A stretch of DNA of 37,541 nucleotides from Crocinitomicaceae bacterium (GTDB lineage Bacteria > Bacteroidota > Bacteroidia > Flavobacteriales_D > Parvicellaceae): positions 43,710 to 81,250 of the forward strand of contig PAST01000008.1 in the NCBI GenBank assembly GCA_002713405.1, read 5' to 3'. The position numbers and the translations under genes were made by a program. This document shows, in pieces, positions 292-29,058 of this stretch. Position 1 is the first letter of the stretch. Every line of letters starts with the position of its first letter. Below the pieces are notes generated by a model. The model made no database searches and was not told the DNA's origin. It saw only the letters and a program-made list of their open reading frames with translations.

Positions 292-3200
292 TTATCTCAT
301 AAGATTTAAACTTCCTTCAAATTTTTTGTCTTTAATGGTAAGGGTATAAAAATAGGTTCCTGTAGGAGTTTTACTACCAACACTATTTTTACCATCCCAC
401 TTCAAATTATTTCCAGTTGAAAAATATATTATTTGACCCCACCTATTGTATATTGTTAGTTCAGCACATTTTTCTACCTTTTCTGGTATTTCAATAGTGA
501 ATTCATCATTCATATCATCTTCATTAGGTGTAAAAACATTTGGTTTTCTAACTTCTCCAAGCCAATCATCAAAATTTAACTCAACACCACTGTAGGTAAA
601 GCTTGATATACATCCGTTGGTATCTTTTACAAATAAGCTTCCATAATAATCAGAATCGAAAGGAAAGATTTTAACTACCTCATTATTTATTGAACTATCA
701 GAGTCACTAAATAACCAATAAAAATCAAGTTCTGTTTCTGAAGTATTGTAATAAGTTACTTCTATTCCATCACAGCCTGGCTCAATAACTGTATCAAAAG
801 TCGCTTCTATTAAAGGTATTTCAATATTTAAAGTATCAACTAAAGCACACCCATTTGAATTTGTTAGATTTACTAAGTAGGAGGTACTTGAATTTGGAGA
901 TAAAATCGGATTACCAATATTCGGATTTGAAACACCAACTGAAGGAGTCCAATTAATTGTTGATGGTAAATCTCCATAAATATTTGGTTGATATGAATCA
1001 CCATTACAAATTACTGTATCATTTGATGTGTTAGCAAGAAATAAAAATACTTTAACAGAATCATAACCAATACAGCCATTACTATCAGTTACTTCAACTA
1101 TAAACTCTATATCGTCATCTGGGAAAGCGAGTGGAGAAGCAACAAATGGACGGTTTATGTATAGGCTGTCCAACCAAACGTAGCTAACTCCACCCGAAGC
1201 TTGAAGTGGAATAGGAACGTTAGCACAAGTGTCAATATCAGCACCTGCATTTGCTATAACATTTGCAAATACATCAACTAGTACTGTATCAAAATTTATA
1301 CATCCAAATGCATCTGTCACCTTAAGAATATAACTAGTTGAGGAACTTGGAGAAGAAATTGGATTGTAGATATTTGGATCTGAAAGAGTCGTTGTATTTA
1401 TCCATTCTGGGATGTTTCCACCTGAACCATTTAATTGTAAAGAAATACCGGGACATGTAGCTGTATCATCCCCAGCATCAGCTAATGGTAGCGAGATTAC
1501 AGTTATAAATAAAGAATCCATATTTGAGCAACCGTTAAGATCTGTTGCTGTTACAAAATATGAATAACTAGAATCTGGGAAAGCTATTGGATTGAATATC
1601 GAATCATTAGACAAATTTGTGTTAGGGGACCAGTTGTAATTTGTTACTAATGCAGAACCAGAAGCATTAAGCATTATTGAATCCCCAAAACATAAACTAT
1701 CAATAGCGTTAATGGTCACATTTGGTAAAGAATAAATGCTAACACCAATGGTATCGTAATAGGTACAGTTTAAGGTATCTGTTAGAGCTAATATGTAATT
1801 AGTATCTGTTAGGGAGTACACTGAAGGATTATAAATATTAGTACTAGAAATTGCATAATTTGGAGACCAAGAGTAAGAATAGTTTTGATCAACTGGAGAT
1901 GAAAGTTCAATACTGTCATTTATGCAATAAAATAAGTCTGCTCCTAAATCAAAATTTGGTAGTTGTTTAATATTAATAATTGTTGTATCAATTATATAAC
2001 ATCCATTGGAATCAAATATTGAAACTTCAAAAAGTGTTGTTTCACTGGGAGATACAATTGGATTGGCAGAATATTCATTTAAAAGAATGGTGTCTCCTTG
2101 TGAATTCGTGATTGGACTCCACAAATAGGAACTACCTCCATAAACAGATAAGGACGTACTTTCTCCAAAACATATTGAAGTGTCAATTGATGAATTTCCC
2201 ACAACATCACTGAAAAAGTCTACAAATACAGAATCAATTCCTGTACAAGTATCATTAGTTGTTTCAACTCTAAACCAAGTTGGCATACTAGGTTGAGATG
2301 TTGGATTTGCATTGGTTTGCCCATTTATAGTAGATAAAGAAGTCCATAGGTAAGAAGATCCAAAAGGAGCAGTTGGGTTACCACCTAAGACTACAATACT
2401 AGTACCACATATATTTATTGTGTCTAAACCAGCATCTGTTGGAACATTTGATTCAACTTTAAGAAAGATGGTATCATAATTTACACAATTATTTATATCA
2501 ATAACTTCAACTACATATGTTTCATCGTCAAATGGACTAGCTGTAGGTGTTCCAATTGAAGAGCTAAGTGTAGAATCTGGAAACCAGTTGAAATTCGTAC
2601 CACCAGTTGCAGACAAAGTCAAAGATCCTCCAGGGCATATCCATAAATCTTCTCCAGCATCAGCGATAGGTAAATTCAAAATATTAATTTTAATAGTATC
2701 TGTATTTATGCAAAAGTTAGCATCAATTCCTGAAACAACGTAATTTATAGTGTCTTCAGGCCAAACATTTATAGTACTAGAATTAGTAGATGAAATATTT
2801 ATATTTGGACTCCACTGATAATTAACCGCTCCAAAAACACTAATTTGTGCAGTATCTCCTGAACAAATATTTTGATTATTACCAGCGTCTAATATAGGTA
2901 AACTATTAACTTGAATATTTATCTCAGCTGTATCAATACAATTATTAATTCCAGTAACAATTACTTCATAAATTGAATTTAAAGAAGGCCAAATTTCCGG
3001 ATTTGATATATTAATATTGCTAATTGAATCTTGATTTAACCACAGGTAAGAGGCGCCACCACTAGCAGTAATAATTATGCTGTCTCCATAACAAATAGAT
3101 GAGTCATTGGAAGTAGATATTAATGGTAAATCATTTACTAAAACTTGGATTGTATCTTGGTTAGAACAATTATTTGAATCTGTTCCAGAGACTATATAAT

Positions 3201-6200
3201 CTGTTAGACTTACGGGATAAACAATAGGGTTTGAAATGGTATTACTATTAATATTATTATTTGGAGTCCATAGATAATTATCAGCTCCAATAACTGAGAG
3301 TTGTACTGAATCTCCAATACAAATTGTCTCATCTTGACCAGCATCAATTATAGGTAGACTTAGAATATTTATTGTAAGAGTATCTTGATTGGTACAGTTA
3401 TTTGTGTCAGTACCTACTACAATATAGTCTTGAGTTGTTATAGCCTCGAAAAGTATTCCGTCCGTAATGCCATTATTCCAAGAATAGCTCACGGAACTTC
3501 CTGATGCGCTTAATAAAGTAGAGTCTCTAAAACAAATATTTTGATCTATTCCAGCATTAATATTTGGTTTAGGATTTACAATTATAGTTACTTCTGCAGT
3601 ATCAGAACAAGTGTTTAGATCACTGGCTAAAACTTTATATGTTGTGGTAGAATTTGGCCAAACTTGAGGATTACTTATGTTTGTATTGGATATATTATTA
3701 GTTGTCAGCCAATTAAAAGTATTAGCTCCAAAAACTTCAATTTGAATAGTGTCTCCATCACATATTACAGAATTATTAGATGTAGTAAGTATAGGTAAGG
3801 GATTTACATTAATGTTGATAGTGTCTTTATTAGAGCAATTGTTTAAATCAGTTCCTGTGACAATATATTCTGTGAGAATTATTGGATATGCAAAAGGGTT
3901 TGAAATTGTATTGTTATTGATGTCATTATTTGGAGTCCATAAATAATTATTAGCACCAGTTACTAAAAGTTGTACCGAATCTCCAATACAAATTGTTTCA
4001 TCTTGCCCAGCATCAATTATAGGCAAACTTAAGGAGTTAATTGTGACGGTATCTTGATTGTTACAATTATTTAAGTCCGTTCCAGATAAAATATAGTCTT
4101 GGGTAATAACGGATTGAAATAAAACTCCATCTAATATTCCATTATTCCAACTGTAGCTCACTGCATTTCCAGAAGCATTTAGTAAAGTAGAATCCCCAAA
4201 GCAGACATCCTGATCTAATCCAGCATTAATTGTTGGTTTAGGATTTACTGTTATGGTAATTTCAGCAGTATCAGCACAGGTATTAATATCTGCTGCTAAA
4301 ACTCTATAAGTAGTAGTAGTATTAGGCCATACTTGTGGATTGCTAACTGTAGAATTAGAAATATTATTAGCTGTCAACCAGTTGAAAGAATTACCTCCAA
4401 AAACTTCAATTTGAATAGTATCTCCTTCACAAATTATAGCATCACTAGATGTTGATAGAATGGGTAGGGGATTAATTTCAATTGAGATAGTATCATTTTT
4501 AGTGCATCCATTTGCTAAACTACCAATTAAAATATAAGTTGTATTCACTGTTGGAATCGCCCATGGGTTAGATATGTTTGAAGCACTCAAAAAAGTACTA
4601 GGAGTCCATAAATAGTTGTCTGCACCTGAAGCCTGCAATTGTACAGAGTCATTTATACATAGATTTATATCATTGCCAGCATCAGTTGAAGGCGATGACA
4701 ATCCATTTATTAAAACTGTATCTGTGTTAACACATCCGTCAGAAGATGTTCCTGTTAAAATATAGCTTTGTGAGTTAGTAACTTCAAAAATTTGTCCATT
4801 AATAATACTATTATTCCAATCAAAATTTGGTGCATTACCAGTTGCGTTTAGTGTTACTGAATCTCCAATACAAACTATTTGATCACTACCTGCATTTACT
4901 GTAGGTAAATTGTTAACTGTAATCTGAAAAGTATCTTTTACAAAACAGCCAAAACTATTAGTTCCTGTAAAATAATATGTGGTTGTAACTGTAGGGTTTA
5001 ATGCAGGTATTTCTAAAGTAGAAATATCTGGAATCCAAGAATAATTATCAGTTATTATAGGCGCAGATACAAATGCAGTATCTCCAATACATATTTCATA
5101 ATCAGGAATTGGATTAAATATTCCTGATCCAGGAATAGGGTTTACTGTGACAACTAGAGAATCTTCTGCTTGACAATTATTGCTAGAAGTAAATTGAACG
5201 TTATATTGTGTAGTTAAATCTGGCCAAACTTGCGTAGAAGCTAAATTTGTTTGTGAAATATTAATATTAGGGGACCATGAAAAATTTGTTCCAGTTCCAA
5301 TAGCATTTAAGGAAACTGTATCACCAACACAGATAGTTACGTCATTTCCTGCATCAATGTTTCCGACATCAACAGTTACTTTAACACTATCTCCACCAAT
5401 ACAAGATGTTCCTCTTTGAACCAACAAATAGTAAGATGTTGTTACAGTTGGTTTGACCCAAGTAGACATATTGTTAGGATTGGAGACGTTGGTATTAGGC
5501 TGCCATAACGAAATATAACCAGGTAGAGCTGTTGTAGTTCCATTAAGCAATACACTATCTCCAAGACAAATATTAACATCATTACCAGCGTCTACGATAG
5601 GAGCAGGAGTAATAGTGGTATTTATTAAGATTGGGTCAGATTCGCACCCAAATTGATTTACAGCTTTGAGAAATACACTACCAGTCCCTGGAGCTGTCCA
5701 AAGTATCTTTGCACTGTCTCCATAATTTTGAGTAATTATACCATTTGCTGAGACATCCCAAGTATAACCTGAAATATTTGGGTTGTTATCTGTTGTATAT
5801 GTAGCTTCAGCATTTTGACACTCAATTAATGAACCATAAATATTTACTGGTGGATTTGTTTTATTGACGGTTATATCATAGACAACATCAGTTGTTTTAG
5901 GTGGACAACCTCTGTCAGAAACGGATGCAGAAAAAAAGTATGGAAGAGCTTGAGCTTGTCCGCATCCGGTACTCCATGTAAATGTTGTTCCTACTGTGTC
6001 AACTCCGTTAATCGGATCACTATATAATGTGTCATAATATCCACCTGCTTGAGCTTCTGGAGATGTTAATGTTGAATCAAAAATTTGTCCGTTAACTCTT
6101 AGAGTTAAACTATCTGCTGGTGTATCTGGATCAAAAAATCCGAAATTAAAAGATATATTATCACCTTCTTCAACTGAAAATGATGTATTAGTTGATCCTG

Positions 6201-7257
6201 CTGCAGGATTTAAATTTGGAGCATTATTTGGAGGACAAGCAATAACATTTAGCTGCACTTCTCTAGTAGATATTCCAATTAAAGTTCCATTTCTGTATTC
6301 TTTAATCATTAATCCAACTACATATTTTCCTTGATTATTAGATTTATATTTTGTTAATCCGTTAGAAGCTGATATGTAGTAATAACCAGAAGGTCCAAAT
6401 GGCTGTTGATATGAATACCCCCCAGCATATGTGACTTCTTCAATTGGCAATTGAAATGTATTTGGATACCATGTTAAACTATTTCCTGGACCAGCTCCAG
6501 CACCAGGTGTGCTAACATTATTAGAACCTCCCCATCCCCCAGCATGATTTCCATCTAATGGAGCTGTGAAACTAAAAAGAAGTTCATCCCCATCAGGATC
6601 ATTTGCTGTATTTAAAAAGGTAGTAGTATCACCAGAACAAATGAAAGGAACTGGATTATCTGTAAATATTGGACTATCATTTTCGTATCCATAAGGTGGA
6701 ATATAAGCATAAAAAGCCATTCCTGCTAGACCGGGATCTTGGATGTTGTCTATTCCATTAGCTCCTCCATTTCTACAACAAGCCTCATGAATTAAAAAGT
6801 AGCCTCCTATCACAGGTTGGCCAGTTGATGGGTTTATAGGTGCTAAATCAATTTGTCCAATGTAAAGTACGGTATAAACGCAAGTTGAAGTTCCAACACT
6901 ACATCCACTTGGATTATTAGGGGTAACTTCAAAATATTCTTGAACAGTAGAATTGTAAACCATATCAACATCAGTAGATCCATATTTAGGATAATTTACT
7001 GCAGTTGATGGCAAAATATTAGTAGGGTCATTGTGAGCATAAACTGCAACTGACATATTTGTTGGAATTCCTGGTGGTTGCCAATTTGAGTTGGACCCGC
7101 AATCAAAGTAGTAGTTTAATTTTAGAGTGTACCTAAAGTCACCATTAGGTTGAACCCCTGCAAACTCATAAGCTAGATTTCCTCCAACAAGATGGGTTGC
7201 AAAATAATTCCCTAAAAAAAGAATATTTAGTAATAATAAAAGTACTATTCTAATCAT
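292..7257 (-). CDS. Giant modular surface protein with about 21 Ig-like repeats and T9SS type B C-terminal domain
   Basis: This 2321-residue exported protein has a signal peptide at residues 1-20, followed by ATHLVGGNLAY, an N-terminus also seen in the 1374 aa protein of this window. Residues 20-340 form an N-terminal domain with a CCRN motif and a DPDGDELLFSF segment. Residues 345-550 hold two further beta-domains. From about residue 552 to 2149 there are about 21 Ig-like repeats of 71-80 residues. Most have a DAG..xxIC.GDS start, a central W.P segment and an NC..DTI end, with two cysteines that could pair. A PKD-like domain follows (about 2150-2235). Residues 2240-2321 are a type B sorting domain (NVFTPNEDDMNDEF, then IYNRWGQIIY, then WDGK). 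Such proteins cross the outer membrane by T9SS; SprB-type relatives act as gliding or attachment adhesins. The adhesin role is inference. The gene starts 9 nt after the 851 aa gene. Confidence 0.9.
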   Translation of the reverse strand: MIRIVLLLLLNILFLGNYFATHLVGGNLAYEFAGVQPNGDFRYTLKLNYYFDCGSNSNWQPPGIPTNMSVAVYAHNDPTNILPSTAVNYPKYGSTDVDMVYNSTVQEYFEVTPNNPSGCSVGTSTCVYTVLYIGQIDLAPINPSTGQPVIGGYFLIHEACCRNGGANGIDNIQDPGLAGMAFYAYIPPYGYENDSPIFTDNPVPFICSGDTTTFLNTANDPDGDELLFSFTAPLDGNHAGGWGGSNNVSTPGAGAGPGNSLTWYPNTFQLPIEEVTYAGGYSYQQPFGPSGYYYISASNGLTKYKSNNQGKYVVGLMIKEYRNGTLIGISTREVQLNVIACPPNNAPNLNPAAGSTNTSFSVEEGDNISFNFGFFDPDTPADSLTLRVNGQIFDSTLTSPEAQAGGYYDTLYSDPINGVDTVGTTFTWSTGCGQAQALPYFFSASVSDRGCPPKTTDVVYDITVNKTNPPVNIYGSLIECQNAEATYTTDNNPNISGYTWDVSANGIITQNYGDSAKILWTAPGTGSVFLKAVNQFGCESDPILINTTITPAPIVDAGNDVNICLGDSVLLNGTTTALPGYISLWQPNTNVSNPNNMSTWVKPTVTTSYYLLVQRGTSCIGGDSVKVTVDVGNIDAGNDVTICVGDTVSLNAIGTGTNFSWSPNINISQTNLASTQVWPDLTTQYNVQFTSSNNCQAEDSLVVTVNPIPGSGIFNPIPDYEICIGDTAFVSAPIITDNYSWIPDISTLEIPALNPTVTTTYYFTGTNSFGCFVKDTFQITVNNLPTVNAGSDQIVCIGDSVTLNATGNAPNFDWNNSIINGQIFEVTNSQSYILTGTSSDGCVNTDTVLINGLSSPSTDAGNDINLCINDSVQLQASGADNYLWTPSTFLSASNISNPWAIPTVNTTYILIGSLANGCTKNDTISIEINPLPILSTSSDAIICEGDTIQIEVFGGNSFNWLTANNISNSTVSNPQVWPNTTTTYRVLAADINTCADTAEITITVNPKPTINAGLDQDVCFGDSTLLNASGNAVSYSWNNGILDGVLFQSVITQDYILSGTDLNNCNNQDTVTINSLSLPIIDAGQDETICIGDSVQLLVTGANNYLWTPNNDINNNTISNPFAYPIILTEYIVTGTDLNNCSNKDTININVNPLPILTTSNNSVICDGDTIQIEVFGANTFNWLTTNNISNTNISNPQVWPNSTTTYKVLASDLNTCSDTAEVTIIVNPKPNINAGIDQNICFRDSTLLSASGSSVSYSWNNGITDGILFEAITTQDYIVVGTDTNNCTNQDTLTINILSLPIIDAGQDETICIGDSVQLSVIGADNYLWTPNNNINSNTISNPIVYPVSLTDYIVSGTDSNNCSNQDTIQVLVNDLPLISTSNDSSICYGDSIIITASGGASYLWLNQDSISNINISNPEIWPSLNSIYEVIVTGINNCIDTAEINIQVNSLPILDAGNNQNICSGDTAQISVFGAVNYQWSPNINISSTNSSTINVWPEDTINYVVSGIDANFCINTDTIKINILNLPIADAGEDLWICPGGSLTLSATGGTNFNWFPDSTLSSSIGTPTASPFDDETYVVEVIDINNCVNYDTIFLKVESNVPTDAGLDTINICGTSIVVLGGNPTAPFGSSYLWTSLSTINGQTNANPTSQPSMPTWFRVETTNDTCTGIDSVFVDFFSDVVGNSSIDTSICFGESTSLSVYGGSSYLWSPITNSQGDTILLNEYSANPIVSPSETTLFEVSIFDSNGCYIIDTTIINIKQLPNFDLGADLFYCINDSIELSSPVDQNYSYSWSPNYAISSTNIYNPSVYSLTDTNYILALTDTLNCTYYDTIGVSIYSLPNVTINAIDSLCFGDSIMLNASGSALVTNYNWSPNTNLSNDSIFNPIAFPDSSYSYFVTATDLNGCSNMDSLFITVISLPLADAGDDTATCPGISLQLNGSGGNIPEWINTTTLSDPNIYNPISSPSSSTSYILKVTDAFGCINFDTVLVDVFANVIANAGADIDTCANVPIPLQASGGVSYVWLDSLYINRPFVASPLAFPDDDIEFIVEVTDSNGCIGYDSVKVFLFLANTSNDTVICNGDSYQPNIYGDLPSTINWTPSVGVSNPNIGNPILSPNSSTSYLVNLTNSNGCALVDTLNIEIPLIEATFDTVIEPGCDGIEVTYYNTSETELDFYWLFSDSDSSINNEVVKIFPFDSDYYGSLFVKDTNGCISSFTYSGVELNFDDWLGEVRKPNVFTPNEDDMNDEFTIEIPEKVEKCAELTIYNRWGQIIYFSTGNNLKWDGKNSVGSKTPTGTYFYTLTIKDKKFEGSLNLMR
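2896..4902 (-). repeat. Three tandem copies of a 669-nt (223-residue) three-domain unit
   Basis: Inside the 2321 aa protein (residues 786-1454) Ig-like repeats recur in the fixed order C-A-B. C is 71 residues with NAG.DQ and SWNNG; A is 76 residues with IGDSVQL and YLWTP; B is 76 residues with GDTIQIEVFG and FNWLT. Copies run 4902-4234, 4233-3565 and 3564-2896, each exactly 669 nt, which I checked by placing the first codon of each C repeat and by counting residues in the first copy. The middle and last copies look most alike. The arrangement implies duplication of whole three-domain blocks. Confidence 0.85.
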
Positions 7258-7266
7258 TTTTAAAAA

Positions 7267-9822
7267 TTATTTACAAACAATTTTTTTAGTAATAATATTT
7301 CCATTTTCAAGTGATATTTTTAAAAAATAAACACCAGATGGATTTTCAGAAATATTAATTTCAGCAAAATTAGTATTTAGTTCAATTGTTTTAATTTGAC
7401 TTCCAAGGATATCCAAAACTTCAATTTTTACAATCTTTTTTGTACTTTGAGTACTGAAAATTTTATTATTAGGATTTGGATATACACTTACATTTTCAGA
7501 GTATAATTTAGTAATAATGTTTGTGGTGCTACTTAATGGCCCAATCCAATTGCTACTATTATTACTACAATTTGACTGAACATAAAAATCATAGCTAATT
7601 GAATCTTCAAGACCTGTAACAAAATAATTGTTAACAAAAATATTATTTACAGTAACACCAAGCCCACTAAAAACACCAAAACCTTCAGGACCATATCTTA
7701 TATTCCATGAATCTTCGTTACCACCAGCTTGCCAGTTTAATTCTACAGAAGTATTAGATGTTTGACCTATGACAATATTACTAGGGTCTTCGCATGTTGC
7801 TACTATTATTGCATAGTCTTCTACTTGTCCTCGGTTAACATTATCTGTTGGTCCATTATTATTGCCTACTTCATCACTAGATATTCGTAGCCTGATGGGT
7901 GTGTTTACTACAATATTTGATGGAATTTGAACTATTGATACTGGATCAAATTGATTAATTTTTTCCATAACTTTTTCGTTATTAGAAAAAACTCCATCAT
8001 TGTTATAATCAATCCATGCTCGTGTATCTTGAGAATTAGTTGGGCCAGTATATATTCTCAGTGCATAATTTGTTCCAGGTTCTACAGATGCTTGGAGTTC
8101 ACAAGAATAATCTACATATCCATCAATTCCATCTAGAGAAGGATTGTTCAGATTAGAAAATTGTACTCTTGAAATCCCATAATCGCAACAATAGCTAGTT
8201 GTTATTGGATTAGGACCAGCAGATAAAACCAAGTTTGTTGAATCAATTTCTATGTATTGAGTAAAAGTTATCGAATCACTTCCATAAAAGTTGCTTGATA
8301 TAAGAGTAACATCATAAATTCCATTATTAATGTAGTCATGAGTTGGGTTTTGAGAAATTGAAGTATTTCCATCACCAAAATCCCAGAACCATGCATAAGG
8401 AACATTTGTGGATAAATCTGAAAATTCAACAATGCCATCACATGAATAATTTATATTACTTTCAAAATCAGCAATCGGTGGGCTAAAGTTGTATGCTAAA
8501 TATATAGTGTAATCTTCTGCTTGCCCATATACTGGGTCTGTGCATGGATTTAATTGTCCAGAAAAAGAAGCATCCGACATAATTCGTAATCTTAGAGGAG
8601 TGTTAACGACCCCAAAAGAGGGAATTGAAACTGTTGCAGAAGTAGAGTCACCACTGACTAAATTTGAGACAATTTGCTCTGTAGAAGTTTCAAAAACTCC
8701 ATTGTTATTGAAATCTATCCATGCAAAAAAGTTCTGTGGAATTAAAGAAATATGAGTAGCGCTCAAATTATAAGTTTGGCCAATATAAAATAATGAGGAA
8801 TCACATGTAAAATCTGAATATCCTTCTACAGAAGAGCCTGATATATTACTCAGATTTCCGAAATTAAATTCTGTAATACCGTAGTTGCCAATAGATCCAG
8901 CAATTCCCGTGGTTGGTGTGCAAGAAGGGGCTATTGGAGGAGTATTGGCTAAATTTACTTGAATTAAATTACTGTAAGTTATAGTGTCGCTTCCAAATGA
9001 ATTGGATGTAATAAGTTCAACAGTATAATTACCCGATGAATTATAGGAATGTGTAGGGTTCTGTTGAGTTGATGTATTGCCATCTCCAAAATTCCAGAAC
9101 CAATTATTTGGAGAATTAGATGTTTGATCGTAAAAGTTAACTAAACCGCTACATGTACTAGTTCCACTAGTTGAGAAATCTGATATTGGTGGACTATTAG
9201 GATCAACCCATGAAAATCTAATATTAGGTTTTTGAGTTTCTACACCATTTATCCAATTTGAATTACAGGGTGATGAATTATCTCTTCTTCTATATATTAA
9301 AGAATTATAGGCGTAATTGGTCATATTCATTATTGCGTTCTGTGACCAACTATTATTATAAAAACAAGTTTGTATTACAATATTTGATGTTCCGTCCCAA
9401 TAAAAAGGGGAAGAAAAATTATGCTGATTCCATCCGATTTGATCTGTGTAAGATGCAGGTCCAAAGTATGTAGCTAAATTATTATTACTCCAGGTACTCA
9501 AAGATTGTTGTGTCGTGGATTTCATTTCAATTTCAAACCCATTTAAAACATTGCCACTGTTAGAAACTATGTCAAATGCTAATCCAGTAATATTTCCTGC
9601 AGAAATCCCTGCTGATTGAAGTTCAGTTGCTTTAACTAAAATTTGATGCTTAACTCCTCTGAAAAAATTACCGTATATGGACGGAAACGAAGAATTAGTG
9701 TTCTGTAAATTGTTAGTTCCAACGTAGTGATAAGTAGCCTGAGAATAATAATTCCCTAAGGATAAGCCAAAAGTAAGGCAAAAGAGAGTTAAATGTTTAG
9801 CAAAGATGTTAAATAACTTCAT
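7267..9822 (-). CDS. Secreted multidomain protein: WDG module, two PKD-GEVED pairs, fibronectin III, T9SS type A sorting domain
   Basis: This is an 851-residue exported protein with a signal peptide at residues 1-29. Residues 31-207 are a beta-rich module with VKATELQSAG and FYWDGTSNIVIQTCF, also found inside the 1374 aa protein. Two PKD-GEVED pairs follow: PKD domains at 213-290 and 450-527 (both with FGDGNTS and QNPTH.Y), and GEVED domains at about 300-443 and 545-676 (with FAWIDFNNNGVF or RAWIDYNNDGVF, and GQAEDY or GQVEDY). A fibronectin type III-like domain lies at 677-767. The end (about 776-851) is a type A T9SS sorting domain: VYPNPNN, then VLDILG, then SGVYFLKI and a basic tail. Type A domains direct cargo to the surface or the medium. 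No enzyme domain is visible, so binding or adhesion is likely but inferred. It is the first gene of a unit with the 2321 aa protein, 9 nt downstream. Confidence 0.9.
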   Translation of the reverse strand: MKLFNIFAKHLTLFCLTFGLSLGNYYSQATYHYVGTNNLQNTNSSFPSIYGNFFRGVKHQILVKATELQSAGISAGNITGLAFDIVSNSGNVLNGFEIEMKSTTQQSLSTWSNNNLATYFGPASYTDQIGWNQHNFSSPFYWDGTSNIVIQTCFYNNSWSQNAIMNMTNYAYNSLIYRRRDNSSPCNSNWINGVETQKPNIRFSWVDPNSPPISDFSTSGTSTCSGLVNFYDQTSNSPNNWFWNFGDGNTSTQQNPTHSYNSSGNYTVELITSNSFGSDTITYSNLIQVNLANTPPIAPSCTPTTGIAGSIGNYGITEFNFGNLSNISGSSVEGYSDFTCDSSLFYIGQTYNLSATHISLIPQNFFAWIDFNNNGVFETSTEQIVSNLVSGDSTSATVSIPSFGVVNTPLRLRIMSDASFSGQLNPCTDPVYGQAEDYTIYLAYNFSPPIADFESNINYSCDGIVEFSDLSTNVPYAWFWDFGDGNTSISQNPTHDYINNGIYDVTLISSNFYGSDSITFTQYIEIDSTNLVLSAGPNPITTSYCCDYGISRVQFSNLNNPSLDGIDGYVDYSCELQASVEPGTNYALRIYTGPTNSQDTRAWIDYNNDGVFSNNEKVMEKINQFDPVSIVQIPSNIVVNTPIRLRISSDEVGNNNGPTDNVNRGQVEDYAIIVATCEDPSNIVIGQTSNTSVELNWQAGGNEDSWNIRYGPEGFGVFSGLGVTVNNIFVNNYFVTGLEDSISYDFYVQSNCSNNSSNWIGPLSSTTNIITKLYSENVSVYPNPNNKIFSTQSTKKIVKIEVLDILGSQIKTIELNTNFAEINISENPSGVYFLKISLENGNIITKKIVCK

Positions 9823-22161: not shown

Positions 22162-25100
22162 GTGAATAAATATTACAGGCTTCTATTATCTCTAATCCTT
22201 ATAATTTCGTTTACCCAAGAAGTTAAGGCTACTCATGTTCCGGGTGGAAATATTTCATATAAGTGTTTAGGTGGTAATAATTACATAATAACTCTTACTG
22301 TATTTGAAGATTGTAGTGGTGCTGTGACAGTGCCAAATACTCCACAGACACTGACAGTTACTAATAGCTGTGGGTTTAATTCTTTGAATCAAATAACACT
22401 TCCAGTTTTATCTTATGGTGACGAAATAAGTCAAGTTTGCTATCCTCAATTACCAAATACTACATGTAATGGAGGATTTCTGCCTGGGATTAAAAAACAC
22501 GTCTACAGTGATACAATTAACCCTATCACCTTACCAGGAAATTGTAATGACTGGACATTCTCTTGGGACGGTTGTTGTAGAAATACTGCTGTTAATTTAG
22601 CCAATCAAGATGGATATTATTTTGAAGCAGTTATAAATAATTCTAATTCTCAGTGTAATTCATCTCCAATAATTAATTCAAATCCAGTTCCATACAATTG
22701 TATCAATATACCAGTTGCCTATAATTTTCAAGTAACAGAACCCGATGGAGATTCTCTTCACTATTCTTTCATTGCCGCATCAGAAATTGCTTTTGGAGGA
22801 GCTGGACCTATTCCTGTTGCATATGCAGGCGGTTATTCACCAGCTAGTCCAATTAACGGCATCTCTTTAGATCCAAATACTGGAGAAATTACCTTTACAC
22901 CAACAATTCAAGGTGCATTTGTTGTAGTTGTTAAAATTGAAGAATTTGATTCTTCTGGAACATCTCTTGGCTATATAATGCAAGATTTTCAATTCCAAAT
23001 AATTACACAAAACTGTATTAATAATGGACCAACTTTACCAGCTTCCCCACTTATAAATTTTTCCGGAAATGCTATTTATCTTGGAGGAAATTCAATACAA
23101 GCATGTGAAGGTGATAGTGTTTGTTTTGATGTTGAATTTTTAGACGTTGATCCTCTAGATTCAATATATATAAACTCAAATGTCACACAAATTTTTCCAG
23201 GTGCCAGTTTCATTCAAAATAGTTTTTTTTCCCCTGCAACTGCTTCAATATGTTTTGAAGTTTTACCGGGTTCAAACCCTTTAAGTTCAATTTCTATTAA
23301 TGTAAATGATAATGGATGTCCCGTTATGGGAACTACTTCATCATTAATTAATGTCACAGTAATTTCCAACACCTATGCTGGTCAAGATGTTACTATTTGT
23401 CAAGGGGAGTCAACCCAAATTTTTGCTACAGGTGGTTCAAATTTTAACTGGTCTATAATAAGTGGAGACCCAATAAGTTTTGGTAATAATTTTTCTTGTA
23501 ACGGATGTTCGAGCCCAATCGCGAGTCCAGCATTTTCTACAGTTTATAAGGTTATAAGTAATCTCTCTGGAGGTTGTTCAAATGTAGATACTGTAAATGT
23601 TAATGTGGCTCCAAATTTTAATTATAATTTGACTCAGTCAGATACCGTTGCCTGTCTTAATTCACTTGTCAATTTCACTGCTTCTCCATCAGGAATTGGA
23701 AACTACACGTATCAATGGGATCCTATTTCTTTTCTAAATAATCCACAAATTGGAAATCCTGAGTTCAGTTCTTCAATGTCTGGTTTCATGAGTTACAATG
23801 TTACAATAACCAATTCCCAAGGTTGTGTTAAAAATGATTCATTATCAATAAATGTTTTACCTGCATATTCCCCAAATATTCAACTAACTGCAAGTGATAC
23901 AGCTGTAATTTGTGGAGATTCTGTATTTATGAATGTGGATTTATTAGGAAATAATCCTGCAATTTGCTCTCCAAGCGGATCAACATCATGTAACTCTCTA
24001 TCCTCAAATCAAATCGTTGGATCAAACATTGGAACTAATACAAATATCTCATATCCTACTCCATTTGGAAATTATTTTAAAAATGTTAAACAACAATATT
24101 TATATAGAGCAAATGAATTTCAATCCGCAGGTTTTAACGGTGGAAAAATTACTGAAATTTCATGGGAGACTGTTTCTAGTAATAACGCTTCAAATAATAT
24201 TGATGATTTCACCATTAAAATAGGTTGTACAAGTTCAAATTCATTAATTTCATGGGAGTCAGGATTGTCCAATGTTTTTTATCAACAAAATTTCTCAGTT
24301 GTTCTAGGATGGAATGATATTGTTTTGGATAATGCTTATGAATGGGATGGTATTTCAAATTTAGTTATTGAAATATGCTATACTAATATTAATCAAAATA
24401 CTTTAAACTTTAATTGGTCTTCTAATTATACCCAAACGCCTTTTAACTCGTCGATTTATTTTAAAGATGATATAACTCCATCCTGTTCTTATAATGGACC
24501 AATAACTGGCTCTTCTAATAAACGCCCAGTAACAAAATTTAGAACTTGTCCAATGATCCCAGATCCTAGCTTCTTTTCATTTGTTTGGTCTCCCTCTTTT
24601 TTCTTGTCTAATTCAGCTGACCAAAACCCAAATGCTGTTCCAATGGTGAGTTCTAATTATCAAGTTTTAGTGACAGATAATTCAGGAGGATGTAAAGATT
24701 CAGCTGATATATATATTGATGTGATTTGTGATACATGTCGTAAACCATCGGCTTTAATTAACGACTTAACTTGTTATGGAGGAAGTGATGCATCTATTTT
24801 TGGTTCGCCAACAGGCATTTTTGGCCCTCCTTGGATAGTGTATTTATTGGACGGTAGTTATAATATCCTTGATTATGATAGTAATGTCGTAAGCACTTTT
24901 TTCTTTGATAGTTTGACTTCTGGTCAATATGTTTTACGTTCTTTAGATACCTCAGGTTGTTATGCAGACACCTTGGTTACAATTAATGATATAACACCAA
25001 TTAGTTTGACTATGACTAATGATACAATAGTTTGTATTGGTGGAAATGCTACTATTGGAGTAACTGCAAATGGAGGCACATCACCTTATATTTATAATTG

Positions 25101-26286
25101 GGAAGGTTTAAGTAATACTACTATGTCACATATTGTTAATCCATTATTCTCTCAGTATTATAAAGTAAATATTCAAGACTCATCTGGCTGTGAATCAAAT
25201 TATGATTCTGTATTGGTAGCTTTGTTTCCACCAATAATTATTAACACTTTAACTGATTCCATTTGTCCATTTGATAGTTTAGATTTAAGTGTTACGGCAT
25301 TTGGTGGTAATGGTGGGCCATATAATTATTCATGGACAAATCAATTGGGTGTACAATTAAGTAATCAGACAACTGCCAATGTTTCACCAATCAATTCTAA
25401 CACATATTATTTTGTCACAGTAAGTGATAATTGTGAGACTCCAGAGAATAACGATTCTGTTTTAGTCAGTTTGTATGATTTGCCTAATGTAGTTTTTTCA
25501 TCTGATACTTCAAGTGGTTGTTGGCCAGTGGAGGTTCTTTTTTATAACAACACCAATACATCTCAAGTCGCAAGTTGTGAATGGAATCTTGGAAATGGCG
25601 TTTTTTCAAATAATTTAGATACTGTGGTGATGATTTACAATACTCCAGGCTCTTACAATGTAACTTTGGAAGTTGTAAATTCGGATGGCTGTGATAATGA
25701 CACTACATATTTTAATTACATAGAGATATACGATTACCCAGTTGCTGGTTTTATATCCCGTCCTAACCCTGCTTCAATTCTTAATCCCTCGGTACAGTTT
25801 GTAGATACTTCTAGTTTAGATGTCGTGTATTTTGATTGGACATTTTACGATAGCACCAATACAGTAATTGGTAGTGATTACGTGCAGAATCCGACCTATA
25901 ATTTTTCCGGAATAATAGAGCAACAGTATTATATACATCTGTATGTAGAGAATCAGAATGGTTGCTCAGATACTGTTAGTGGAACTCAGGTAGTGGAGGG
26001 TGAATATGCTTTTTTCTTGCCTAATTCATTTACACCAAATGGAGATGGGTTGAATGATAGTTTTTTCCCTGTTGGAGATAAGGTATCTATAGAGAATTAT
26101 AGTTTTAAGATATTTAACAGATGGGGAGAATTGATTTTTAGCACGAATGATTTCAATGAAAAATGGGATGGTACTTATCAAAACAATCCATTATCATCAG
26201 ATGCATATATTTGGAAAATTGATTTAGTAGATAGCTCAACAGGCAAAGAAAAAAATCTGAAAGGTTATGTACTATTGTCAAGATAG
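22162..26286 (+). CDS. Large modular surface protein with nested WDG module and T9SS type B C-terminal domain
   Basis: This 1374-residue exported protein starts at a GTG (22162); an in-frame stop four codons upstream limits alternatives. Residues 1-23 are a signal peptide followed by THVPGGNISY. The N-terminal domain (about 24-280) carries a CCRN motif and EPDGDSLHYSF, as in the 2321 aa protein. A second beta-domain (290-405) and Ig-like repeats follow (405-490, 490-570). The third Ig-like repeat, starting at IQLTASDTAVICGDS, is split by a module of about 195 residues (602-796) homologous to the N-terminal module of the 851 aa protein. After a PKD-rich region (869-1285) the end is a type B T9SS domain (1288-1374: NSFTPNGDGLNDSFFP, IFNRWGELIF, EKWDGTY). 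It is likely a surface adhesin or matrix protein by inference, and first gene of a three-gene unit. Confidence 0.9.
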   Translation: MNKYYRLLLSLILIISFTQEVKATHVPGGNISYKCLGGNNYIITLTVFEDCSGAVTVPNTPQTLTVTNSCGFNSLNQITLPVLSYGDEISQVCYPQLPNTTCNGGFLPGIKKHVYSDTINPITLPGNCNDWTFSWDGCCRNTAVNLANQDGYYFEAVINNSNSQCNSSPIINSNPVPYNCINIPVAYNFQVTEPDGDSLHYSFIAASEIAFGGAGPIPVAYAGGYSPASPINGISLDPNTGEITFTPTIQGAFVVVVKIEEFDSSGTSLGYIMQDFQFQIITQNCINNGPTLPASPLINFSGNAIYLGGNSIQACEGDSVCFDVEFLDVDPLDSIYINSNVTQIFPGASFIQNSFFSPATASICFEVLPGSNPLSSISINVNDNGCPVMGTTSSLINVTVISNTYAGQDVTICQGESTQIFATGGSNFNWSIISGDPISFGNNFSCNGCSSPIASPAFSTVYKVISNLSGGCSNVDTVNVNVAPNFNYNLTQSDTVACLNSLVNFTASPSGIGNYTYQWDPISFLNNPQIGNPEFSSSMSGFMSYNVTITNSQGCVKNDSLSINVLPAYSPNIQLTASDTAVICGDSVFMNVDLLGNNPAICSPSGSTSCNSLSSNQIVGSNIGTNTNISYPTPFGNYFKNVKQQYLYRANEFQSAGFNGGKITEISWETVSSNNASNNIDDFTIKIGCTSSNSLISWESGLSNVFYQQNFSVVLGWNDIVLDNAYEWDGISNLVIEICYTNINQNTLNFNWSSNYTQTPFNSSIYFKDDITPSCSYNGPITGSSNKRPVTKFRTCPMIPDPSFFSFVWSPSFFLSNSADQNPNAVPMVSSNYQVLVTDNSGGCKDSADIYIDVICDTCRKPSALINDLTCYGGSDASIFGSPTGIFGPPWIVYLLDGSYNILDYDSNVVSTFFFDSLTSGQYVLRSLDTSGCYADTLVTINDITPISLTMTNDTIVCIGGNATIGVTANGGTSPYIYNWEGLSNTTMSHIVNPLFSQYYKVNIQDSSGCESNYDSVLVALFPPIIINTLTDSICPFDSLDLSVTAFGGNGGPYNYSWTNQLGVQLSNQTTANVSPINSNTYYFVTVSDNCETPENNDSVLVSLYDLPNVVFSSDTSSGCWPVEVLFYNNTNTSQVASCEWNLGNGVFSNNLDTVVMIYNTPGSYNVTLEVVNSDGCDNDTTYFNYIEIYDYPVAGFISRPNPASILNPSVQFVDTSSLDVVYFDWTFYDSTNTVIGSDYVQNPTYNFSGIIEQQYYIHLYVENQNGCSDTVSGTQVVEGEYAFFLPNSFTPNGDGLNDSFFPVGDKVSIENYSFKIFNRWGELIFSTNDFNEKWDGTYQNNPLSSDAYIWKIDLVDSSTGKEKNLKGYVLLSR
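23965..24549 (+). other. Domain-sized insertion inside an Ig-like repeat
   Basis: These bases encode residues 602-796 of the 1374 aa protein. They align by eye with residues 31-207 of the 851 aa protein: YRANEFQSAG with VKATELQSAG, GWNDIVLDNAYEWDG with GWNQHNFSSPFYWDG, and SNLVIEICY with SNIVIQTCF. The flanks join into a normal Ig-like repeat (AVICGDSVFMNVDLLG before, FSFVWSPSFFLSNSADQNP after). A cysteine lies at each edge (602 and 796). Confidence 0.7.
24766..26286 (+). repeat. Direct repeat copy 1: shared C-terminal half of the two surface proteins
   Basis: This stretch encodes residues 869-1374 of the 1374 aa protein (506 residues). It corresponds end to end with residues 296-802 of the 802 aa protein (27535-29058), with a net difference of one codon. 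Both start LTCYGGSDAS and end LKGYVLLS plus Arg or Lys. Similarity rises toward the 3' end, where the type B sorting domains differ at only about nine positions. Confidence 0.85.
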
Positions 26287-26323: not shown

Positions 26324-26650
26324 ATGAAGTTCAAGTATATTTCTGTCAAAATTCAAATAATAACCTCTTTACTTTATTTTATCTTATCTAATATTTCTGC
26401 TTTTTCGCAAACTAATCTACAGAATCCATCTTCTTTAATATTTGTAGAGGGTGGAGAAAGAAAAAGCTATATTTCTGTGGAAGAAAATATTAAATCTTTT
26501 GGATTAGATCATATAAATTCAATGATATTAGCCTACAATTCTAAAATGTCGTCAATAGATACCAACGATATAAATAAAAAAGTTTGGTTAAAAAGAATTA
26601 AATATGAACTTGTACTTTTAAGACAAAGAAAACTAGAATTAACCAAATAA
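26324..26650 (+). CDS. Small secreted protein of unknown function in the surface-protein operon
   Basis: This 108-residue protein carries a signal peptide at about residues 1-29 (hydrophobic IITSLLYFILSNISAFSQ). The mature part of about 80 residues is hydrophilic and probably helical, rich in lysine, serine and asparagine. It includes FVEGGERKSYISVEENI and ends in LLRQRKLELTK. I do not recognise the family. The gene lies 37 nt after the 1374 aa gene, and its stop overlaps the start of the 802 aa gene by one base (TAATG), so the two are probably translated together. The setting suggests a periplasmic or surface partner of the T9SS cargo, but that is inference. The coordinates, signal peptide and tight coupling make it very likely a real gene. 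Confidence 0.75.
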   Translation: MKFKYISVKIQIITSLLYFILSNISAFSQTNLQNPSSLIFVEGGERKSYISVEENIKSFGLDHINSMILAYNSKMSSIDTNDINKKVWLKRIKYELVLLRQRKLELTK

Positions 26651-29058
26651 TGAGACCTTTTCTACTATTTTTCATAGTTCTATATTGTTTTAATTTAAAA
26701 GGTCAAACCAATGTAAATTGTGCAAATATGTCTGGAATTTGTACAAATACTGGGTTAACATTTCAAGCAAATAGCGGAGTTACTGCTGCTAGTATTTCTA
26801 ATCCTGGAAATAATTATGGTTGTTTGTTTAATTCACCTAATCCTGCATGGTATTACCTGCAAATATCTCAATCAGGGAGTCTTTCAATGACACTTTCAGC
26901 AGCTCAGGATATAGATTTTATTATGTGGGGTCCTTTTCCAAATTTAGCAAATGCTATTTCAAATTGTAATTCCTATTCTGCGGCTGATATAGTTCCAGAT
27001 TTACCAACTGGTTGTGGAGGTATTTTTGCTTGTACCCAACTAGGATGTAGCTATTCTATTTCTAATATTGAAACACCTTCAATATCTAATGCATTAGCTG
27101 GTGAGGTTTATGTTCTTTTAGTAACCAATTACGCAAATGTAGTTCAAAATATATCTCTTGTTCAGTCAGGCGGTTCTGGAAGTACAAATTGTAATGTTTT
27201 GAATCCATGCGACATGACTTATATTAATGCAAATGTTACATCTTGTGATTCTTTATCTGGAACCTATGATATTAGTGGTGTTGTAGAATTTAATAATGCA
27301 CCTGTTTTGGGTTCGTTAGTTGTTAAAAATTGCTCTGGAGATTCCGTAATTTATAATCCTCCTTTCACTAGCCCATTAAATTATAGTATAAATAATATTT
27401 ACAGTAGTGGTAATCAAAACTGTGTAATAACTTCTTATTTTACAGATGATAACTCATGTAGTTTATCCACTAGTTCATTCATTGAGCCAATTTGTCCGGG
27501 CCCTTGTCTTGCTCCAATCCCAACTGTGGATAGCTTGACTTGTTATGGCGGAAGCGATGCATCTATATCTGGCATCCCCGATGGAACAGACGGTCCTCCT
27601 TGGATTATTCAGCTTATAGATGGAAATTATACAAATATTCTTTTTTCAGATAGTAATATCACATCTTCTTTTTTATTTGATAGTTTAAGTGCTGGTAGTT
27701 ATGTAATAAGATCTTTAGATACTACAGGGTGTTATGCAGATACTATGATAACTATTCCAGATGGTATTCCAATGGTTCTTTCGATGAGTAATGATACTGT
27801 AATTTGTATTGGAGGTACAGCGACAGTCGCTGTTACATCGACAGGTGGAACACCACCTTATAGCTATAGTTGGAATGGTATAAGTGGCAATGGCCCTCAT
27901 GACGTTTCCCCTACTTATTCACAATATTATAAAGTTAGCGTATTAGACTCATTCAACTGTGTGTCTGATTTAGACTCGGTGTTAGTTGCTCTTAACCCAC
28001 CAATATTAACCAATTTACTATCATCTGTTTCAATATGTCCATATGATAGCTTAAATATCACAATTGCTACCTATGGTGGAAACGGAGGTCCATATAATTA
28101 TGGATGGACAATGGCTAATGGAATTTCTGTCGGTTCTCAAAGCAGTCTAAATGTATCACCTGTTGGTAGTTCTACCTACTATTATTTGACTATTACTGAT
28201 AATTGTGAGACTCCAGAGAATTTAGATTCTATTTTAGTTAGTTGGTTTGATTTGCCCACGGTTGATTTTTCCTCTAACAGAGTTAGTGGATGTTGGCCAG
28301 TAGAGGTGTATTTTTATAACCAAACAACTGTTTCACAGGTAGCTAGTTGTGACTGGGATTTAGGGAATGGATTTTACTATAATAACTTAGATACTGTGGT
28401 GACAATTTACAATACTCCAGGGTCGTACCATGTTACTTTAGATGTAACGAATTTGGATGGTTGTGATAATGATACTACTTATTTCAGTTACATAGATGTT
28501 TACGACTATCCTGAAGCTGGTTTTACATCAAGTCCCAACCCTGCTTCTATACTATCTCCTTCAGTTCAGTTTTTAGATACATCAAGTGCAGATGTAGTAT
28601 ATTTTGATTGGACATTTTACGATAGCACCAATACAATTATTGGCAGTGATTATGTTCAGAACCCAATTTATAATTTTTCGGGTATTGAAGAGCAACATTA
28701 TCACATTCGGTTGTATGTTGAGAATCAGAATGGATGTTCTGATACTGTTTACGGAGTTCAGATAGTGGAGGGTGAGTATGCTTTTTTCTTGCCAAATTCT
28801 TTTACTCCAAACGGGGATGGTTTGAACGATACTTTTTTTCCAGTTGGAGATAAGATATCAGTGGAGAACTATAGTTTTAAGATATTTAATAGGTGGGGAG
28901 AGTTGATATTTAGTACTAATGACTTCAATGAAAAATGGGATGGCACGTACCAAAACAATTCATTATCATCTGATGCATATATATGGAAGATTGATTTAGT
29001 AGACATCTCTTCAGGTGAGGAAAAGAGTCTGAAAGGTTATGTACTACTTTCTAAATAG
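26650..29058 (+). CDS. Modular surface protein with T9SS type B C-terminal domain, paralogue of its neighbour
   Basis: This 802-residue exported protein has a signal peptide at residues 1-18 (FNLKGQ). Residues 19-185 form a cysteine-containing N-terminal domain (VNCANMSGICTNTG, then AWYYLQISQSGSLSMTLS, then DIDFIMWGPF), which resembles domains seen in many Bacteroidota exported proteins. A linker domain (190-290) leads into a C-terminal half (296-802) that is paralogous to residues 869-1374 of the upstream 1374 aa protein. It has SprB/Ig-like repeats, a PKD-like domain (GCWPVEVYFYNQ, then CDWDLGNG) and a type B sorting domain at about 716-802. The protein should be exported by T9SS and attached to, or released from, the surface. 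Its ATG overlaps the stop of the 108 aa gene. The gene stops directly against the convergent 310 aa gene with no gap. Confidence 0.9.
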   Translation: MRPFLLFFIVLYCFNLKGQTNVNCANMSGICTNTGLTFQANSGVTAASISNPGNNYGCLFNSPNPAWYYLQISQSGSLSMTLSAAQDIDFIMWGPFPNLANAISNCNSYSAADIVPDLPTGCGGIFACTQLGCSYSISNIETPSISNALAGEVYVLLVTNYANVVQNISLVQSGGSGSTNCNVLNPCDMTYINANVTSCDSLSGTYDISGVVEFNNAPVLGSLVVKNCSGDSVIYNPPFTSPLNYSINNIYSSGNQNCVITSYFTDDNSCSLSTSSFIEPICPGPCLAPIPTVDSLTCYGGSDASISGIPDGTDGPPWIIQLIDGNYTNILFSDSNITSSFLFDSLSAGSYVIRSLDTTGCYADTMITIPDGIPMVLSMSNDTVICIGGTATVAVTSTGGTPPYSYSWNGISGNGPHDVSPTYSQYYKVSVLDSFNCVSDLDSVLVALNPPILTNLLSSVSICPYDSLNITIATYGGNGGPYNYGWTMANGISVGSQSSLNVSPVGSSTYYYLTITDNCETPENLDSILVSWFDLPTVDFSSNRVSGCWPVEVYFYNQTTVSQVASCDWDLGNGFYYNNLDTVVTIYNTPGSYHVTLDVTNLDGCDNDTTYFSYIDVYDYPEAGFTSSPNPASILSPSVQFLDTSSADVVYFDWTFYDSTNTIIGSDYVQNPIYNFSGIEEQHYHIRLYVENQNGCSDTVYGVQIVEGEYAFFLPNSFTPNGDGLNDTFFPVGDKISVENYSFKIFNRWGELIFSTNDFNEKWDGTYQNNSLSSDAYIWKIDLVDISSGEEKSLKGYVLLSK
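27535..29058 (+). repeat. Direct repeat copy 2: shared C-terminal half of the two surface proteins
   Basis: This is the counterpart of 24766-26286, offset by 2769-2772 nt, and encodes residues 296-802 of the 802 aa protein. Short stretches are identical in DNA, for example the GATTGGACATTTTACGATAG block near 25840 and 28610. Synonymous changes elsewhere show the duplication is not recent, or that exchange has been partial. Confidence 0.85.

Follow-up and report, generated by a model that had tools for sequence, protein, structure and literature searches.

According to studies of RTX adhesins, the domains that bud from Ig-like split domains are ligand-binding heads that point off the stalk (PMC12077191, PMC10865825). 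These adhesins, represented by AhLap, MpIBP and FrhA, are type I-secreted proteins of Aeromonas, Vibrio and Marinomonas, and their heads are CBM, PA14, vWFA or RTX domains. In the CE20 SGNH carbohydrate esterases, an accessory domain is also inserted in another (catalytic) domain of a carbohydrate-active protein (PMC12313940).

In this study, the whole stretch of DNA analysed, which we call the window, comprises 37,541 nucleotides from a Crocinitomicaceae bacterium. It encodes a 1374 aa protein that shares with the RTX adhesins an interrupted Ig-like beta-sandwich, a complete inserted domain and a stalk of repeats; the adjacent termini of the inserted head, a further likeness, are read for our module from circular permutants. 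However, the module hosts differ from RTX adhesins in their type IX secretion, their unlisted head family, their conserved neck cysteines and the nesting of the module in other folds too, and from the CE20 esterases in both host and module. A type I secretion signal and an RTX nonapeptide region were not found in the 1374 aa host; the CHU_C / TIGR04131 type IX sorting domain is present instead. By analogy, the module would work like the heads of RTX-adhesin split domains while being unrelated to them and not a member of their group. Our literature search returned no paper that names the module or joins split domains with Bacteroidota, although one may still exist.

The features of the two module-bearing proteins in the window are the following.

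7267-9822, minus strand: 851 aa protein, type IX-secreted, with two PKD, two GEVED, fn3 and Por_Secre_tail
9205-9732, minus strand: N-terminal, un-nested module copy of the 851 aa protein, residues 31-206 (BLASTP and AF2)
22162-26286, plus strand: 1374 aa host protein, type IX-secreted, with Ig-like/PKD repeats
23371-23607, plus strand: Ig-like repeat 1 of the 1374 aa protein, uninterrupted, residues 404-482 (window-repeat profile)
23677-23856, plus strand: Ig-like repeat 2, uninterrupted, residues 506-565 (window-repeat profile)
23884-23955, plus strand: first part of Ig-like repeat 3, strands A and B, residues 575-598 (profile and AF2)
23956-24006, plus strand: neck ahead of the module, bearing C602 and C610, residues 599-615 (alignment)
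24007-24549, plus strand: nested jelly-roll-like module with C689, C739, C775 and C796, residues 616-796 (BLASTP and AF2)
24574-24723, plus strand: second part of Ig-like repeat 3, strand C to the last strand, residues 805-854 (profile and AF2)
Residues 1286-1372, plus strand: CHU_C type B sorting domain of the 1374 aa protein (profile match)

The interrupted repeat and its insert

Both proteins end in a type A or type B sorting domain, on which their assignment to type IX secretion is based. The 1374 aa protein has a signal peptide, read by eye, and a C-terminal CHU_C / TIGR04131 type B domain (2.4e-17; Pfam, NCBIfam), and the 851 aa protein ends in a Por_Secre_tail / TIGR04183 type A domain (1.6e-11). 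The sequence-only reading had given both open reading frames with correct coordinates and had pointed to 23965-24549, which is residues 602-796 of the 1374 aa protein, from the first neck cysteine to the last cysteine. The module core, about 180 residues in length, lies at approximately residues 616-796 (24007-24549), and the whole interruption covers approximately residues 599-804.

The same reading had claimed that the third Ig-like repeat is interrupted, and excision bears this out. The 2321 aa window protein supplied 12 uninterrupted Ig repeats, from which we made a profile of 74 positions. The two flanks of the insert match complementary pieces of this profile, positions 3-21 and 26-73, with single scores of 6.4 bits for the first and 34.9 bits for the second. 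When the insert (residues 598-804) is removed, the joined flanks form one repeat that covers positions 3-73 of 74 with 47.0 bits, and the restored repeat scores 40.8 bits in the excised whole protein; control cuts shifted by 10-45 residues reach at most 21.7 bits. Because excision turns two profile fragments into one full repeat, the module interrupts the third repeat after strand B and ahead of strand C.

Structure prediction, which had been proposed as a check, gives confident strands on both flanks and confident modules. The AF2 model of the nested unit (48-sequence alignment; pLDDT 91.8, pTM 0.79) has strands at 9-14 and 25-32, then the insert, then strands at 242-247, 268-276 and 282-291. 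The free module of the 851 aa protein is modelled with the same strand order as the nested copy (pLDDT 92.0, pTM 0.89), and both copies are predicted to be beta-sandwiches with a pLDDT of about 92.

The two modules are homologous. The alignment of the insert with residues 31-207 of the 851 aa protein, previously made by eye, is confirmed by BLASTP, in which the nested module matches residues 31-206 with 97 bits, E 2e-30 and 35% identity over 178 columns, and the motifs QSAG, GWN and WDGxSN are matched in the same order. The two whole proteins match with E 4e-25.

Cysteines bracket the insert, as had been noticed (C602 and C610 ahead of it, C796 at its end), and this pattern is specific to nested copies. 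At least two cysteines occur within the 26 residues ahead of the module in 63 of 68 nested Ig copies vs 0 of 33 N-terminal copies, and a cysteine at the module end is found in 66 of 68 vs 0 of 33. Every nested copy has C739 and C775, which many N-terminal copies have as well. C602 and C689 are lost jointly in exactly the same three of 66 rows, two of which are related, and the second neck cysteine and the end cysteine are both absent from one locus (L102). These joint losses lead us to predict the disulfides C602-C689 and C610-C796.

Two other window proteins resemble the host. The 2321 aa protein (292-7257, minus strand), the source of the empty-repeat reference, has many uninterrupted Ig-like repeats and an N-terminal domain that by eye resembles that of the 1374 aa protein. 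The neighbouring 802 aa protein (26650-29058, plus strand) is 70% identical to the 1374 aa protein in its C-terminal 539 residues, and its N-terminal half is unlike that of the 1374 aa protein and has no module; the gene pair appears to be an adjoining duplication with head exchange.

The possible function of the module

We consider it probable, at about 0.6, that the module is a ligand-binding head which stands out to the side of a stalk secreted by the type IX system. The module would be a compact jelly-roll beta-sandwich head with adjoining N and C termini. In the 1374 aa protein, the third Ig-like repeat would act as a split domain: the head would bud from its B-C loop, and the two halves of the repeat would fold around the foot of the insert. 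Held by a short neck in which the two predicted disulfides serve as staples, the head would point sideways from a type IX-exported stalk built of Ig and PKD repeats. The 851 aa protein would carry this head at its free N-terminal tip. The ligand is probably a glycan, most likely on a particle, an alga or a neighbouring cell. The suggestion that the module is displayed from a loop of the Ig-like fold is well supported by the excision tests, the AF2 model and the conserved neck cysteines. Many members of the family are N-terminal or tandem; projection from a split domain is therefore not needed for the role of the module.

The binding role is proposed because the fold neighbours of the module are CBM, lectin and carbohydrate-esterase jelly rolls together with phage proteins, and because the heads of RTX adhesins bind ligands. 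In Foldseek searches against the PDB, the matches to CBM, lectin and carbohydrate-esterase jelly rolls are weak (best E 6e-4, TM below 0.5) and differ in function. Phage proteins, some of them minor tail proteins, were also matched, the best being a viral model with a TM of 0.77 and E 8.5e-8. The likeness to jelly-roll CBMs and lectins (CBM6/CBM35-like, the acetyl xylan esterase CBM, phage tail jelly rolls) is one of beta-sandwich fold class, whereas the TM to PDB entries is below 0.5 and there is no convincing sequence match. In sequence searches of Pfam, NCBIfam and PDB sequences, no family covers the module and no curated CBM or lectin family matches it. Matches to IcmE (25 positions) and DarT were at chance level and were rejected.

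An unlikely alternative, although the most probable of those considered, is that the module is a structural or processing insert (a spacer, brace, folding aid or multimerisation unit) with no external ligand. The most conserved residues (WDGxSN, G..I and Q.L..A.EL) look as though they may be structural, no conserved binding site was located in the module, nested copies carry extra cysteines, and ligand binding is something that we infer. However, the module also occurs by itself at N termini, in tandem arrays and as a neighbour of LamG and PNGase F domains, and many binding domains are among its fold neighbours. It is considerably less probable that the module is a catalytic or carbohydrate-processing domain, as might be supposed from its presence in PNGase F-like proteins and from those fold neighbours that are parts of carbohydrate esterases. 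In such esterases the catalytic SGNH domain is distinct from the jelly roll, which forms a CBM-like domain at the N terminus (PMC9105624), and across 40 diverse members of our family only two Gly and one Trp are invariant, with no conserved catalytic set. We regard the binding head as the best inference and not as a result.

Inheritance of the window copies

The source genome has two copies of the module, and 50 of 60 relatives carry it. In the tree, the Ig B-C clade that holds the nested window copy has a support of 97 and the N-terminal clade that holds the 851 aa copy a support of 99, and each clade has orthologues in relatives. The host labels require 23 changes overall, and supported branches force at least six for the Ig B-C label; these counts are upper-end, the tree being a quick search with long branches in which several Ig B-C copies (L093, L100, L022, L046 and others) are truncated or weak. 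The tree indicates that host changes were repeated but took place long ago and that the window pair is not a recent swap; the two copies are members of separate clades, each inherited vertically. In several relatives, as in the window, an N-terminal-type gene and a second-copy gene share a contig on opposite strands, 6-22 kb apart (G001, G002, G004, G005, G006, G016, G018, G019 and G032).

The sequence-only reading had inferred a mobile or swappable unit of exported proteins. Over long evolutionary times this stands, as the module occurs at N termini, in tandem, in the Ig B-C loop, near the end of Ig_7, permuted in a lamin-tail domain and, in PNGase F-like proteins, beside LamG. A recent exchange between the two window genes is not supported: that neighbouring genes lately swapped or duplicated a mobile segment might be suspected from the position of both genes within 14 kb and from the linked copies in several relatives, but it is very improbable given the 35% identity and the different supported clades, each with its orthologues. 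Moreover, no flanking target-site-like repeats surround the module DNA, its GC content (0.30) is only slightly below that of the flanks with no strong composition break, and neither a phage search with the nested copy nor a plasmid search with the N-terminal copy gave a match.

Other hosts and circular permutation

The nested module is real, and the phenomenon is larger than first reported. The module occurs in 36 of 296 near-complete Bacteroidota genomes (E 1e-10), and of 78 loci from GTDB contigs, two (L064, L076) are labelled Cloacimonadota/Cloacimonetes. A profile search for nested and terminal copies had been suggested earlier, and among 94 unique internal copies excision restores a complete Ig repeat in 65 (median 57.6 bits), compared with 8 for shifted-cut controls, although the window module was the seed of the searches behind these counts, which are therefore not an unbiased census; in the wider sample of 296 Bacteroidota genomes, N-terminal copies are commoner. 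Cut points were varied and controls were given equal freedom; cuts at the exact ends missed many cases because approximately 20-30 neck residues were left behind. The remaining internal copies include tandem ones (L076, L064), some nested in other ways and some that, by eye, follow Calx-beta-like repeats (L129-L131, L139). In one record (L043), which is labelled Chloroflexi and possibly mis-binned, each of two adjoining Ig repeats holds a nested copy (residues 599-775 and 879-1058). One copy in an Ig B-C loop (L061) lacks neck cysteines and groups with N-terminal copies at modest support, which suggests a separate insertion.

Pfam Ig_7, a CHU_C-associated Ig-like family, is itself a host and is split near its end by the module in L118 (two copies), L126 and L067; when nested units are taken together with their flanks, no other Pfam family is matched as often (7 of 48 members). 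Excision extends the Ig_7 match from 5-67 (48.0 bits) to 5-84 of 84 (60.7 bits) in the first L118 copy and from 6-67 (53.2 bits) to 6-83 (61.0 bits) in L126, and gives near-complete matches in L067 and the second L118 copy. On our own reading of the repeat, the insertion point would be the F-G hairpin. All three loci reach the gathering score of Ig_7 (PF19081) after excision, whereas the window host repeat does not reach it; no Pfam family was found in that region, and the repeat is Ig-like by the window's own repeat profile.

In many relatives, PNGase F-like type IX proteins of approximately 1150-1280 aa contain a divergent copy of the module with a LamG domain after it (L110-L116, L138, L140, L141, L143 and L144). 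In a collinear alignment with the solved PNGase F, weak in its first part and strong in its second, 528 extra residues fall between residues 60 and 74 of that enzyme, and Pfam N-glycanase_N did not recover the first half in the excised proteins. Nesting in the N-domain is probable here.

In two further loci (L135, L137), the second half of the module (profile positions 83/90-175) precedes the first half (2/3-83/95) inside a lamin-tail domain; L135 also matches the CotH kinase domain. Excision lengthens the LTD match of L135 from 16-74 to 16-106 of 109 (47.4 to 57.9 bits) and raises that of L137 from 45.7 to 54.3 bits, and the L135 copy, when rotated back, gives one match over 3-175 of 177 with 180 bits. 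A targeted search of the taxonomic order found this LTD-CotH architecture, seen in L135, L137 and L147-L176, in about 35 genomes from two of its families (f8 and f9), and all 30 fetched loci have the permuted arrangement, 29 by an automatic rule and one (L168) by reading. In the permutants a link of 0-5 residues, mostly 1-2, connects the native C terminus to the native N terminus, and this indirect sequence evidence suggests that the module termini lie side by side. Such termini would make the module pluggable, as this is the geometry required of a plug-in domain.

It is hardly credible, despite the weak match of the N-terminal flank alone (6.4 bits), that two degenerate half-Ig segments merely flank an ordinary tandem domain, since excision regains a full-length repeat in 65 copies and fills out the Pfam matches of other hosts (Ig_7 and LTD), and AF2 predicts confident strands on both flanks. 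For the family as a whole, we propose at even odds that it is an unnamed family of plug-in domains, found in Bacteroidota and Cloacimonadota, which by several independent insertions entered loops at no fewer than three or four unrelated host sites (the Ig B-C loop, the end of Ig_7, in permuted form a lamin-tail domain and probably the PNGase F N-domain). Type IX-secreted proteins would thereby have gained interchangeable binding heads, with disulfide staples specific to their class where the neck is that of an Ig repeat.

The surface proteins of Bacteroidota contain long chains of Ig and PKD repeats whose working parts are seldom identified, and split repeats may mark the site of the working head, as in RTX adhesins. 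The module is widespread, is unnamed in the libraries searched, and tolerates both insertion in several folds and circular permutation. This natural tolerance would provide a set of recombinant constructs for finding what the hosts bind, and the module may serve as a naturally occurring model in which to study what makes a domain insertable.
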